Source of the DNA: Acidaminococcaceae bacterium
Lineage (GTDB): Bacteria; Bacillota; Negativicutes; Acidaminococcales; Acidaminococcaceae
Assembly: GCA_944390935.1 (NCBI GenBank)
Contig: CALXRU010000002.1
Coordinates: 1-64,000 of the forward strand
Direction: 5' to 3'
DNA: 64,000 nucleotides
Position numbers and translations under genes: made by a program. The notes under the pieces were generated by a model, which made no database searches, was not told the DNA's origin, and saw nothing but the letters and a program-made list of their open reading frames with translations. This document shows positions 13,516 through 18,369 of this stretch, one piece after another. Every line of letters starts with the position of its first letter. The stretch's first letter is position 1.

Positions 13516-13576
13516 ATAGGAAAGTTGAGTGAGACTGAGGAGTCACTTGACTATTGTTATTGTTTATAAAGTGCCT

Positions 13577-13711
13577 AAAGGTAAAAAATGTTGAAGTAAT
13601 TGGTTTGTGGAGTAGAGGAAACCAGGAGACTCGCACGAAGCTGCTGACGAAAAGACAGGATTTATCCGCAGGCGTTTTATAAAAATAAACGTTCCTGAGG
13701 AGGAATACATT
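13577..13711 (+). ncRNA. Conserved 5' leader RNA of OmpM gene 1 (copy A)
   Basis: This 135-base stretch is almost the same as 15160-15293 upstream of the second porin gene, although the DNA further upstream is unrelated. It includes GGAAACCAGGAGACTCGCAC and AGGCGTTTTATAAAAATAAA in both copies. Possible pairings are GGTTT...AAACC, GAGT...ACTC and CTG...CAG, and a final hairpin TTCCT-GAGG-AGGAA (13692-13705) that covers the ribosome-binding site. It resembles a structured control element, not a chance repeat. I do not recognise a described family. Confidence 0.6.
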
Positions 13712-14932
13712 ATGAAAAAATCTTTAGTACTTGCAATGGCTATGGCTCTCGGCGTAACTGCTTCCGCTTATGCAGCTAACCCGTTCAGCGACGTACCGGC
13801 CGGCCACTGGGCTTATGACGCAGTTAACAAACTGGCTGCAGAAGGCGTTGTAACCGGTTATCCTGACGGCACCTTTGGTGGCGACAAACTGATGACCCGT
13901 TATGAAATGGCACAGATCGTAGCAAAAGCTATGGCAAACGGCGCAAACGTAGACAAACTGGCTGCTGAATTCGCAGACGAACTGGACAGCCTTGGTGTTC
14001 GCGTTGCTAACCTTGAGAAAAAAGCTGACAACGTAAAAATCACCGGTCAGATCCGTGCTTCCTATCGTGATGTTGATGGCGATGCTAAATCCCATGAAGG
14101 CCGTCTGCGTACCCGTTTGTTTGTAAACGGTGCTATTAACGAAGACTGGACTTATACCGGCCGTTTTGAAAACAGCCAGTATTATGATGGCGATGGCACT
14201 GATGGCAAAAAAGGTGAAGCTGGTGACGACGAAGTAAAACTGAACTGGGCATATGTAACCGGTAAAGTTGGCGGCGTTGCTGTAACCGCTGGCCGTCAGG
14301 ACTTCAAACTCCATACCGGTAACGTAGTAGATGCTACTTTTGATGGTGTTTCTGCAGCTTATGGCAAAGATGTAAAACTGACCGGCTATGTAGCAAAAGC
14401 AGCAGATACTGGCAAATGGGATAATGATGACAAGTTAGAAGAAGGCGACCGTATGTATGCTGTTGACCTGAGCGCTAAACTTGGCGTAGTTGATTCTTAT
14501 GTAACCTACTACAAAGCTGATACTTTGAACGATAACGAAATTTGGAACGTAGGTGTAGCTGTACCTGTAGTTAAAGATTTGACTTTGAAAGCTGAATATA
14601 TGCATGGTGATGCAGATGCTACTGATGGCGATAACAATGGTTGGGTAGCAGGCTTGGCATACAAAGGCGCTAAAGCTTCTAAAGTTGGTAGCTGGGGCAT
14701 CTATGCTAATTACTATGATCAGCCGGAAGCAACCTATCTTGAACAGACCATGGACGGTTATACTCCGTTGAGCTTTAATGGTACTGACGGTTTTGAAGGT
14801 TATGAAGTAGGCGCTAACGTAACTTTGGCTAAAAACATTGTTGCAGCAGTTAAATACTATGACCTCGAAGGTCGTGAAGGCGCTGACTACGACGAAGAAA
14901 CCCTGTGGTCCGAAGTTGTATTCACTTTCTAA
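13712..14932 (+). CDS. ompM: OmpM-type SLH-domain porin (copy 1)
   Basis: A 406-residue outer-membrane protein. A signal peptide of about 21 residues (cut after 'ASAYA') is followed by one S-layer homology domain (residues 22-80, 'FSDVPAGHWAYDAVNKLA' and 'GYPDGTFGG'), a coiled coil (about 84-108, 'LDSLGVRVANLEKK') and a beta-barrel to the C-terminal Phe ('WSEVVFTF'), the signal for outer-membrane insertion. In Negativicutes the SLH domain binds polyamine-modified peptidoglycan and tethers the outer membrane to the wall while the barrel acts as a pore. The first 115 or so residues match copy 2 almost exactly; the barrels differ. Strong GAGGAGG site. Confidence 0.92.
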   Translation: MKKSLVLAMAMALGVTASAYAANPFSDVPAGHWAYDAVNKLAAEGVVTGYPDGTFGGDKLMTRYEMAQIVAKAMANGANVDKLAAEFADELDSLGVRVANLEKKADNVKITGQIRASYRDVDGDAKSHEGRLRTRLFVNGAINEDWTYTGRFENSQYYDGDGTDGKKGEAGDDEVKLNWAYVTGKVGGVAVTAGRQDFKLHTGNVVDATFDGVSAAYGKDVKLTGYVAKAADTGKWDNDDKLEEGDRMYAVDLSAKLGVVDSYVTYYKADTLNDNEIWNVGVAVPVVKDLTLKAEYMHGDADATDGDNNGWVAGLAYKGAKASKVGSWGIYANYYDQPEATYLEQTMDGYTPLSFNGTDGFEGYEVGANVTLAKNIVAAVKYYDLEGREGADYDEETLWSEVVFTF

Positions 14933-14967
14933 TCTTAGCCTTACAACAGCTTAATATTAGAATAACT

Positions 14968-14998
14968 AAAGCGGATGGCTTTATGCCATCCGCTTTTT
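14968..14998 (+). terminator. Terminator of OmpM copy 1
   Basis: AAAGCGGATGGC (14968-14979), loop TTTAT, GCCATCCGCTTT (14985-14996), then T's. The 35 bases before it are the same as those before the terminator of copy 2. Confidence 0.9.
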
Positions 14999-15159
14999 GT
15001 ATCTCTTATTAACAATTACTGTGTAACTATTTTAACACTTCAAGTAAACTCCAAATCTTTTCAAAAATTATTATTATAAAAACTTGTCAAAAATGTGAAC
15101 ATAGTGTATAATGCAACATAAATCATATACAAATTTTTACACAAGTTTATAATACGCTG
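14999..15159. other. Spacer between the two porin transcription units
   Basis: About 160 AT-rich bases with no gene, holding the promoter of the second porin gene at 15084-15112. It shows no similarity to the DNA upstream of the first copy beyond promoter elements. Confidence 0.6.
15084..15112 (+). promoter_or_regulatory. Promoter of the second OmpM porin gene
   Basis: TTGTCA (15084-15089), a 17-bp spacer and TATAAT (15107-15112), stronger on paper than the promoter of copy 1. Leader of about 175 bases. Confidence 0.75.
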
Positions 15160-15293
15160 AAAGGTAAAAAATGTTGAAGTAGTTGGTTGGTAGAGTAGAG
15201 GAAACCAGGAGACTCGCACGAAGTGGCTGATGAAAAGACAGGCTTTATCCGCAGGCGTTTTATAAAAATAAAATTCCTGAGGAGGAATACGTT
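15160..15293 (+). ncRNA. Conserved 5' leader RNA of OmpM gene 2 (copy B)
   Basis: The 134-base counterpart of the leader at 13577-13711, differing at roughly a dozen positions. The hairpin over the ribosome-binding site is kept (TTCCT 15274-15278 with AGGAA 15283-15287), and the extra outer pair is A-T here and G-T in copy A. The strong match in non-coding DNA next to divergent DNA indicates selection or recent gene conversion. Confidence 0.6.
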
Positions 15294-16544
15294 ATGAAAA
15301 AATCTTTAGTACTTGCAATGGCTATGGCTTTGGGCGTAACTGCTTCTGCTTATGCAGCTAACCCGTTCAGCGACGTACCGGCTGGCCACTGGGCTTATGA
15401 TGCAGTTAACAAACTGGCTGCAGAAGGCATCGTAAACGGTTATCCTGACGGCACCTATGGTGGCGACAAACTGATGACCCGTTATGAAATGGCACAGATC
15501 GTAGCAAAAGCTATGGCAAATGGCGCAAACGTAGACAAACTGGCTGCTGAATTCGCAGACGAACTGGACAGCCTTGGCGTTCGCGTAGCTAACCTTGAGA
15601 AAAAAGCTGACAACGTAAAAATCACCGGTCAGATCCGTGCTTCCTATCGTGACGCTGATGATAAAGGTCATCAGGGCCGTCTGCGTACCCGTTTGTTCGT
15701 AAACGGTGCAATCAATGAAGACTGGGCTTATACCGGACGTTTTGAAAACAATCAGTATTATGATGGTGCAGATACTGATGCGGGTTATTCTGATGCAGCT
15801 GGCGATGACGAAGTTAAATTTAACTGGGCTTATGTAACCGGTAAAGTTGGCGGCGTTAAAGTTGAAGCCGGCCGTCAGGACTTTACCAATGCTGACGTAG
15901 TAGATATCACCGGCGACGGCGTTAAACTTGCTTATGGTAGCGATTGGCAGGTAAAAGGCTGGGCATTCAAAGGCACTTCTGACATCAAAGACTACACTGA
16001 AGGCGATGAATCCGGTATGCAATCTGGTGATCGTGTATATGTAGCTGCTGTTGAAGGTGCTTTCGGCGCTCTTGATACCGCTGTTCGTTATTATAAAGCT
16101 GATACTGTAAACGAAAATGAAATCGTAGAAGTTGCTCTTGCAACTGAAGTTGCTGAAGACCTGACTTTGAGAGCTTCCTGGTTCAACGGTACTATTGACA
16201 ATGCTGCTGAAGCAAAAGTAAACAATGATAACGCTGATACCAACGGCTGGTTGGTAGGCCTGTCCTATGGCGGCGCTAAAGCTTCCGAAGTAGGTTCTTG
16301 GGGCGTATATGCTAACTACAGCGACCGTCCGTATGCTACTTACCTGCTGCCGACTAACTTCAGCGGTTATGCAGTAAAACCGGTTGATCTTGTAGCTGGC
16401 GACGGTTATGAAGGCTACGAAGTTGGCGCTAATGTAACTCTTGCTAAAAACATCGTAGCAGGCGTTAAATACTTCGATTATGAAGGCCGTGAAAACAACG
16501 AAGATGCTCAGACCCTGTGGTCCGAAGTTATCTTCACTTTCTAA
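15294..16544 (+). CDS. ompM: OmpM-type SLH-domain porin (copy 2)
   Basis: A 416-residue paralogue of the preceding gene with the same order: signal peptide, SLH domain, coiled coil, beta-barrel, C-terminal 'WSEVIFTF'. Up to about residue 115 only a few residues differ (for example 'GIVNGYPDGTYGG' for 'GVVTGYPDGTFGG'); beyond that the strands remain alignable but loops differ in length and sequence. It should play the same wall-tethering and pore role, with different exposed loops. It has its own promoter and terminator, so the pair can be expressed independently. Confidence 0.92.
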   Translation: MKKSLVLAMAMALGVTASAYAANPFSDVPAGHWAYDAVNKLAAEGIVNGYPDGTYGGDKLMTRYEMAQIVAKAMANGANVDKLAAEFADELDSLGVRVANLEKKADNVKITGQIRASYRDADDKGHQGRLRTRLFVNGAINEDWAYTGRFENNQYYDGADTDAGYSDAAGDDEVKFNWAYVTGKVGGVKVEAGRQDFTNADVVDITGDGVKLAYGSDWQVKGWAFKGTSDIKDYTEGDESGMQSGDRVYVAAVEGAFGALDTAVRYYKADTVNENEIVEVALATEVAEDLTLRASWFNGTIDNAAEAKVNNDNADTNGWLVGLSYGGAKASEVGSWGVYANYSDRPYATYLLPTNFSGYAVKPVDLVAGDGYEGYEVGANVTLAKNIVAGVKYFDYEGRENNEDAQTLWSEVIFTF

Positions 16545-16579: not shown

Positions 16580-16610
16580 AAAGCCGTTGGCATTTTGCCA
16601 ACGGCTTTTC
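16580..16610 (+). terminator. Terminator of OmpM copy 2
   Basis: AAAGCCGTTGGC (16580-16591) pairs with GCCAACGGCTTT (16597-16608). The stem bases differ from copy 1 on both sides so that pairing is kept. Confidence 0.9.
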
Positions 16611-18033: not shown

Positions 18034-18125
18034 CATCTCGCGGCGGCGTAGTGCTTCCGCTAAATTTTTATCTGCGTAAGCAGGATTTTTGCTAAACGCA
18101 GAGAATATATAATTTTGGAAAAATC
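18034..18125. other. Spacer between the aldolase gene and the cobalamin riboswitch
   Basis: About 90 bases without a gene. A short inverted repeat (CTGCGTAAGCAGG... GCTAAACGCAG) near 18070-18102 may terminate the aldolase transcript or be part of the riboswitch's outer stem. The promoter of the cob operon must lie here or just upstream, but no good match was found. Confidence 0.4.
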
Positions 18126-18325
18126 AACAGGTGATGCGGTTAACCCCGCGAGCTTAATAGGGAAGCCGGTGCGAATCCGGCGCAGTCCCGCTACTGTAAT
18201 GGCGAGCCGTCTGCAAGATGTCACTGAAGCGATGCTTTGGGAAGGCGCAGCGCGGCGATGAACCTGAGCCAGGAGACCTGCCTGTTACGAGTGCTATTGC
18301 CTACGGGGGATAGGTGGGCGCTTGC
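18126..18325 (+). promoter_or_regulatory. Cobalamin riboswitch
   Basis: The conserved core is present in order: GGTGATGCGG..., then GGGAAGCCGGTGCGAATCC (18160-18178), CAGTCCCGCTACTGTAA (18183-18199) and the B12 box AGCCAGGAGACCTGCC (18267-18282). It senses adenosylcobalamin and is followed at once by a transcription terminator in front of cobU, so high B12 should shut down the salvage operon. Confidence 0.92.
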
Positions 18326-18341: not shown

Positions 18342-18369
18342 AATCCTCTTTGTTAAAAGGGGATTTTTT
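18342..18369 (+). terminator. Riboswitch-controlled terminator
   Basis: AATCCTCTTT (18342-18351), loop GTTA, AAAGGGGATT (18356-18365), then TTTT, only 22 bases before the cobU start. It is the expression platform of the cobalamin riboswitch. Confidence 0.8.

Follow-up and report, generated by a model that had tools for sequence, protein, structure and literature searches.

A conserved leader hairpin upstream of ompM-type genes in several bacterial phyla and its likeness to the cyanobacterial small RNA Yfr2

The leaders of two tandem ompM genes in an Acidaminococcaceae genome share a small hairpin whose core, as comparison between species shows, is conserved as an RNA structure. In the genome sequences searched, which place this element in four or more phyla, it sits almost exclusively in front of genes whose products are outer-membrane proteins, for the most part barrels with an SLH tether. 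It is followed by a second, predicted hairpin over the Shine-Dalgarno (SD) sequence, and its architecture recurs in the cyanobacterial small RNA Yfr2. In bacteria outside the Proteobacteria, proteins of the OmpM/SlpA type link the outer membrane to the cell wall and form its main pores (Silale et al. 2023, PMC10628300). How their amount is controlled is largely unknown, and a leader conserved in several phyla points to one mechanism; the two hairpins together suggest an old, shared control of porin and anchor proteins in many double-membraned bacteria.

Both genes of the window (the whole stretch of 64,000 nucleotides that was analysed) encode OmpM-type proteins with a signal peptide, one SLH domain and a porin barrel. 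The core hairpin of their leaders consists of a variable, covarying stem (P1), a bulge, a 3-bp stem (P2) and a 12-nt loop, GAAACNNGGNNA. It was searched for with R1, a covariance model of 41 positions that was built from a seed of 70 sequences and trained without any Yfr2. The features of the locus are as follows.

13565 to 13570, plus strand: putative -10 box TATAAA of copy 1, read from the sequence
13577 to 13711, plus strand: leader RNA of ompM copy 1, 93% identical to the copy 2 leader
13612 to 13636, plus strand: core hairpin of copy 1 (R1 match 13606-13646, 35.4 bits; covariation), with P1 GU 13612-13613 / AC 13635-13636, A 13614, bulge GC 13633-13634, P2 GAG 13615-13617 / CUC 13630-13632 and loop GAAACCAGGAGA 13618-13629
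13665 to 13701, plus strand: predicted SD-sequestering hairpin of copy 1 (fold; linker-SD pairing enriched across leaders), pairing UCC 13665-13667 with GGA 13699-13701 and CAGG 13669-13672 with CCUG 13694-13697; the SD is AGGAGG 13698-13703
13712 to 14932, plus strand: ompM copy 1, open reading frame of 406 aa with SLH domain (Pfam, E 5.7e-15) and porin barrel (Porin_5, E 1.8e-5)
15148 to 15153, plus strand: putative -10 box TATAAT of copy 2, predicted from the sequence
15160 to 15293, plus strand: leader RNA of ompM copy 2, forming a repeat pair with the copy 1 leader
15195 to 15219, plus strand: core hairpin of copy 2 (R1 match 15189-15229, 37.3 bits), with P1 GU 15195-15196 / AC 15218-15219, A 15197, bulge 15216-15217, P2 GAG 15198-15200 / CUC 15213-15215 and loop 15201-15212
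15248 to 15283, plus strand: predicted SD-sequestering hairpin of copy 2 (folds), pairing UCC 15248-15250 with GGA 15281-15283 and CAGG 15252-15255 with CCUG 15276-15279, with an upper stem 15257-15263 / 15268-15274
15294 to 16544, plus strand: ompM copy 2, open reading frame of 416 aa with SLH domain (Pfam, E 7.5e-15)

The leader starts would be the expected transcription starts, since they lie directly 3' of the -10-like boxes. Similarity between the copies begins at 13562 and 15145 (repeat D2).

An earlier note on this DNA had described the two leaders as nearly identical below differing upstream DNA, and the alignment confirmed this, with 93% identity and a single 1-nt gap in the leaders versus 49%, about the random level, in the 150 nt upstream. 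Over their first 300 nt, the two ompM genes share 96% identity and differ at only 6 of 90 third codon positions; the remainder of the genes is 68% identical. The leader similarity of the pair is no greater than its synonymous-site similarity. As the gene starts are as similar as the leaders, recent duplication or gene conversion accounts for the near-identity of the pair, and because this event took in leader and gene start alike, the resemblance between just these two leaders does not count as evidence for an RNA element. The several possible stems, to which the note had also pointed, do not help, since single-sequence folds of the window leaders are no better than those of shuffles (z -0.68 and -0.29). 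What argues for an RNA element comes from other species and from paralogues that have diverged. With these included, the two explanations that the note had offered as alternatives hold side by side: duplication or conversion made the pair near-identical, and the leader is also a conserved structured RNA.

Seven ompM genes are present in the source genome. Five of their leaders contain the exact core AGAGGAAACNNGGNNACTC, and on contigs 9, 11 and 18 this core is kept in surroundings that have almost wholly diverged. The sixth leader (L380, near 1428-1451) has the variant GUAAAG GCAACACGGAAA CUUUAC, which lacks the bulge, and no recognisable core was found in the seventh (L382). A 22-letter core pattern with at most two mismatches was detected in 46 of the 59 genomes of the family, with a reversed control near zero, and the exact 19-letter core in 133 of the 380 genomes of the class, against four control hits.

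Comparison with the leaders of other species, proposed in the earlier note as a way to refute a structured RNA, revealed common stems as well as common sequence. Around P2, which is flanked by an A at position 0 and by NN at +1 and +2, position -1 pairs with +3 in 81% and -2 with +4 in 76% of 165 distinct leaders. In the seed of 70 diverse sequences, 74 double-changed cells were counted for P1, compared with 32.5 +/- 5.3 for shuffled controls, and its covariation score was 0.325 against 0.109 shuffled and at most 0.19 slid, at least 1.7 times that of any slid version. After addition of Deinococcota, Atribacterota, Armatimonadota and Yfr2 sequences, the contrast grew to 121 versus 50 cells and 0.413 versus at most 0.14 for slid structures; because position guided the fit of the seed alignment (A1) and the model that of A2, such pair counts lean towards the structure, and the slid and shuffled controls guard only partly against this bias. 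P2 was seen as GAG/CUC, GAC/GUC, GUG/CAC and AAG/CUU, with pairing in every case. Above P1 lies an outer stem, and in 148 of 155 leaders its pairing surpasses that obtained when the upstream arm is shuffled. The loop itself is almost invariant, apart from four free positions at fixed places.

R1 matched 227 of 380 Negativicutes genomes (E <=5e-4), 77 of 111 in Deinococcota, 21 of 50 in Atribacterota and 8 of 121 in Armatimonadota; the best E values on three unrelated control genomes were 0.005 to 0.34. A scan of unannotated GTDB species genomes for the core followed by GGAGG returned at least 118 stretches. Among the matches listed, 125 of 148 distinct sites precede an SLH gene (phmmer); the other listed sites are mostly ompM genes that are cut short or out of frame, apart from about nine coding or other matches, no more than expected by chance. 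Meiothermus, Calidithermus, Atribacteria, an Armatimonadetes MAG and UBP9 are among the sources of these listed matches, as is one MAG labelled Cyanobacteria (UBA7694). The genes that follow the element were inspected at the retrieved loci rather than in each matching genome. Thermus-type targets combine Pfam SlpA_C with SLH. In a few targets, all outer-membrane proteins, no SLH domain was detected; they comprise a TonB receptor (L067), proteins with weak Pfam matches to YjbH-like (L371) and Wzi-like (L128) proteins, and unassigned signal-peptide proteins (L148, L266). What unites the targets is an outer-membrane product more than the presence of an SLH domain.

Some single loci deserve mention. 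In one genome of the window's family, the core (28.5 bits; L067 1547-1587, minus strand) lies upstream of a TonB-dependent receptor gene, the only such case seen. Two MAGs titled Acholeplasmataceae (L147) and Burkholderiales (L189) contain ompM-type genes of Acidaminococcaceae and UBP9 type, respectively, and are probably misassigned or contaminated records. The Armatimonadota match L374 lacks the expected context and is probably due to chance.

The second hairpin had likewise been proposed in the earlier note, and it covers part of the SD in both window copies. For copy 1, folding under a constraint also gave a pairing of the anti-SD arm with sequence further upstream, and because of this competing fold the closed state is not the sole one in that copy. 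In a set of 155 leaders with linkers less than 80% alike, SD-linker pairing averaged 0.73 compared to 0.59 for shuffled linkers, in favour of the real linker in 123 of the 155 (Wilcoxon p ~7e-13, a value that overstates independence because the leaders are related to each other). For 23 other open reading frames of the window, which served as control, the values were 0.37 and 0.39 (p 0.92). The letters of the pairing, as read from the sequences, are ACCUCC..GGAGGU in Thermus-type leaders and CCUUGG..CCAAGG(AGG) in Atribacterota; paralogues in the window's genus have UUUCUUCCC..GGGAGGAAA, and the window leaders UCC.CAGG..CCUG.GGA. Sequestration of the SD by the linker between core and start codon is thereby shown by prediction and comparison. 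Pairing between the anti-SD strand and the purines of the core likewise exceeds the level of shuffles (0.43 versus 0.34), a signal that is confounded because SD and core are both purine-rich; it would make an RNA-only switch possible. We also discarded a pseudoknot in which GGAAAC would pair with GUUUU in the loop of the SD hairpin, as this loop is not conserved in other genera.

Unexpectedly, R1 also matched 25 of 292 genomes of Cyanobacteriota, mostly at the small RNA Yfr2 (Cyano-1). The Yfr2 5' motif GUGAGGAG lies upstream in 20 of the 25 cyanobacterial loci (L344 to L368); in addition, L344 has a near version of it, and three tested loci passed the Cyano-1 gathering score of Rfam. The matches L347, L348, L362 and L364 lack the expected context and are probably chance hits. 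Three Yfr2-type loci with the hairpin AGACGAAAC..GG..AGTC (L346, L349, L352) score below Cyano-1 gathering (37.9 bits versus 41 for L346), so the Rfam Cyano-1 model under-covers Yfr2.

In the description of Yfr2 by Voss et al. (2009, PMC2662882), who suggested that it binds protein, a stem with a bulge at -4 carries a 12-nt loop. Yfr2 (RF01701) and the leader core have in common the loop GAAACNNGGNNA on a 3-bp stem, the bulge at -4 and then a longer variable stem. The Yfr2 network also has porin targets, by way of Yfr1, which targets two porins in Prochlorococcus and with which Yfr2 interacts (Lambrecht et al. 2019, PMC6778093). In contrast, Yfr2 is a separate, abundant transcript, whereas the ompM leader, as predicted from the sequence, runs into its gene and adds the SD hairpin. 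Yfr2 further has a conserved single-stranded 5' motif, UGUGAGGAG, which is absent from 13577-13711 and 15160-15293, and a sequence scan of the window leaders found no terminator-like site between core and start codon. The element of the window is therefore not a Yfr2 small RNA. The Cyano-1 model had no match on the window at gathering, none on leader 2 at E values up to 5, and none on an Armatimonadota leader; on a Thermus-type slpA leader no other Rfam family scored higher, but its E was 0.026 and its 24 bits lie below the gathering score of 41. Since Cyano-1 misses the window leader and only hints at the Thermus-type one, the similarity to Yfr2 could be convergence. The shared hairpin may reflect common descent or convergence on one fold. 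The role of the invariant loop of the very abundant Yfr2 has been open since at least 2009, and the same hairpin in cis before porin genes offers a concrete hypothesis as well as a bait for the Yfr2 binder.

The earlier note recognised no described RNA family in the leader, and this holds for Rfam 15: no family was matched by the window leaders at gathering or at permissive E values, and no riboswitch class matched them. For the literature it holds only in part, given the Yfr2/Cyano-1 hairpin architecture and an orphan "SLH motif" (Stav et al. 2019, PMC6429828), a riboswitch candidate from Synergistaceae, Clostridia and Negativicutes that was discovered in Thermovirga lienii. According to the passages of the source available to us, this motif has 80 examples, and SLH genes follow some 60% of these. 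The position upstream of SLH-domain genes and the occurrence in Negativicutes are shared with our element, a likeness of context as those passages describe it, and on genetic context and taxa the leader element is probably this motif. Deinococcota, Atribacterota, Armatimonadota and the link to Yfr2 belong to the leader element and are not mentioned in those same passages. A literature search that covered few subscription papers found no report joining the element to Deinococcota slpA or to Yfr2. Experimental work on the leader of the S-layer gene slpA of Thermus thermophilus was reportedly published by Castan et al. in 2001 (J Bacteriol). Genomes of the Thermus/Meiothermus phylum carry the hairpin before slpA-type genes with Pfam SlpA_C.

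Our preferred reading, to which we give an even chance, is that the leader is a cis-acting element of translational control, whose hairpin is read by a trans-acting factor, likely a protein, shared with Yfr2. The invariant loop and the bulge would form the binding site of this factor, most likely an RNA-binding protein to which Yfr2 also binds. Once bound, the factor would tip the SD hairpin towards its closed or its open form, and this balance would set the amount of porin or tether protein made. Cyanobacteria would carry the hairpin on an RNA that acts in trans, to which it would have moved and where it could titrate that factor. The near-exclusive link to one product class and the presence of the same hairpin in an abundant small RNA favour a protein with a sponge over a metabolite. 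A wider version, in which one hairpin and its binder form an ancient regulator of porins and tethers in diderm Terrabacteria, acting in cis in Negativicutes, Deinococcota, Atribacterota and Armatimonadota and in trans as Yfr2 titrating the same factor, is more tentative and in our view rather falls short of an even chance.

The logic would resemble that of CsrA/RsmA and RsmX/Y/Z, where GGA likewise lies in a hairpin loop near the SD and a sponge-like small RNA carries the same hairpin; it was suggested for Yfr2 by Voss et al. (2009, PMC2662882), who found no RsmA homologue in cyanobacteria. Unlike in that system, the leader loop has 12 nt, and only its first GGA is invariant: the second GG is followed by A in 63 of 100 sequences (position 13 being A, C or U).

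The main rival to our preferred reading is a metabolite-binding riboswitch, in which the core binds a small envelope-related molecule and switches the SD hairpin. A loop that is very conserved over several phyla, the adjoining covarying stem and the SD hairpin downstream would all suit it, and Stav et al. (2019, PMC6429828), in the passages mentioned, view the SLH motif upstream of SLH genes in Negativicutes as a riboswitch candidate. We consider it unlikely: the regulon comprises outer-membrane proteins only and lacks genes for the biosynthesis or transport of a single pathway's compounds, an aptamer would be expected to be larger than a 3-bp stem with a 12-nt loop, and the recurrence of the same hairpin in an abundant cyanobacterial small RNA is not expected of one.

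The hairpins might instead be constitutive and stabilise a very abundant mRNA or tune its translation without any regulation, comparable to E. coli ompA, whose mRNA owes its stability to a long structured leader. The target is indeed a major, highly expressed surface protein and the single-sequence fold energy is ordinary, but invariant loop letters and a bulge conserved across phyla exceed the needs of a stabilising stem, and a hairpin that hides the SD would lower output rather than raise it, which leaves this explanation improbable.

Less probable still is that the conserved, purine-rich core serves as the pairing target of a trans-encoded small RNA. GAGGAAAC does consist largely of purines and is in part unpaired, and in Prochlorococcus two porins are targeted by Yfr1, to which Yfr2 binds (PMC6778093). 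However, four free loop positions at fixed spacing and the covariation in P2 fit recognition of a fold, not a long duplex, and the part of Yfr2 that is complementary to Yfr1 is its 5' end, the motif missing from the window leaders. For Hfq together with a small RNA, as envisaged in the earlier note, we found nothing specific in favour. Duplication and gene conversion of the two ompM genes without any RNA element, which would explain why the leaders match each other as closely as the first 300 nt of the genes do and why synonymous changes are few, is already refuted as the sole explanation by the cross-phylum covariation: the core persists in paralogues of this genome that have diverged, and in other phyla, where its stems show compensatory changes.

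Two further candidates in the leaders were rejected: a short upstream reading frame, AUG UUG AAG UAA, is present in both window copies and broken in the other leaders of the genus, and a hammerhead-like pair, CUGAUGA..GAAAC, is visible in copy 2, its CUGANGA not being kept in other leaders. At L057, a drum RNA (RF02958; 2328-2440, minus strand) lies near an ompM gene. Before the cobalamin genes that start at 18350, the window contains an ordinary cobalamin riboswitch (RF00174, 116 bits) at 18112-18299. Finally, the terminators of the two ompM genes (14968-14996 and ~16580-16609) differ in their stem letters and keep the pairing: GCGGATGGC/GCCATCCGC versus GCCGTTGGC/GCCAACGGC is a compensatory change between recent ompM copies.
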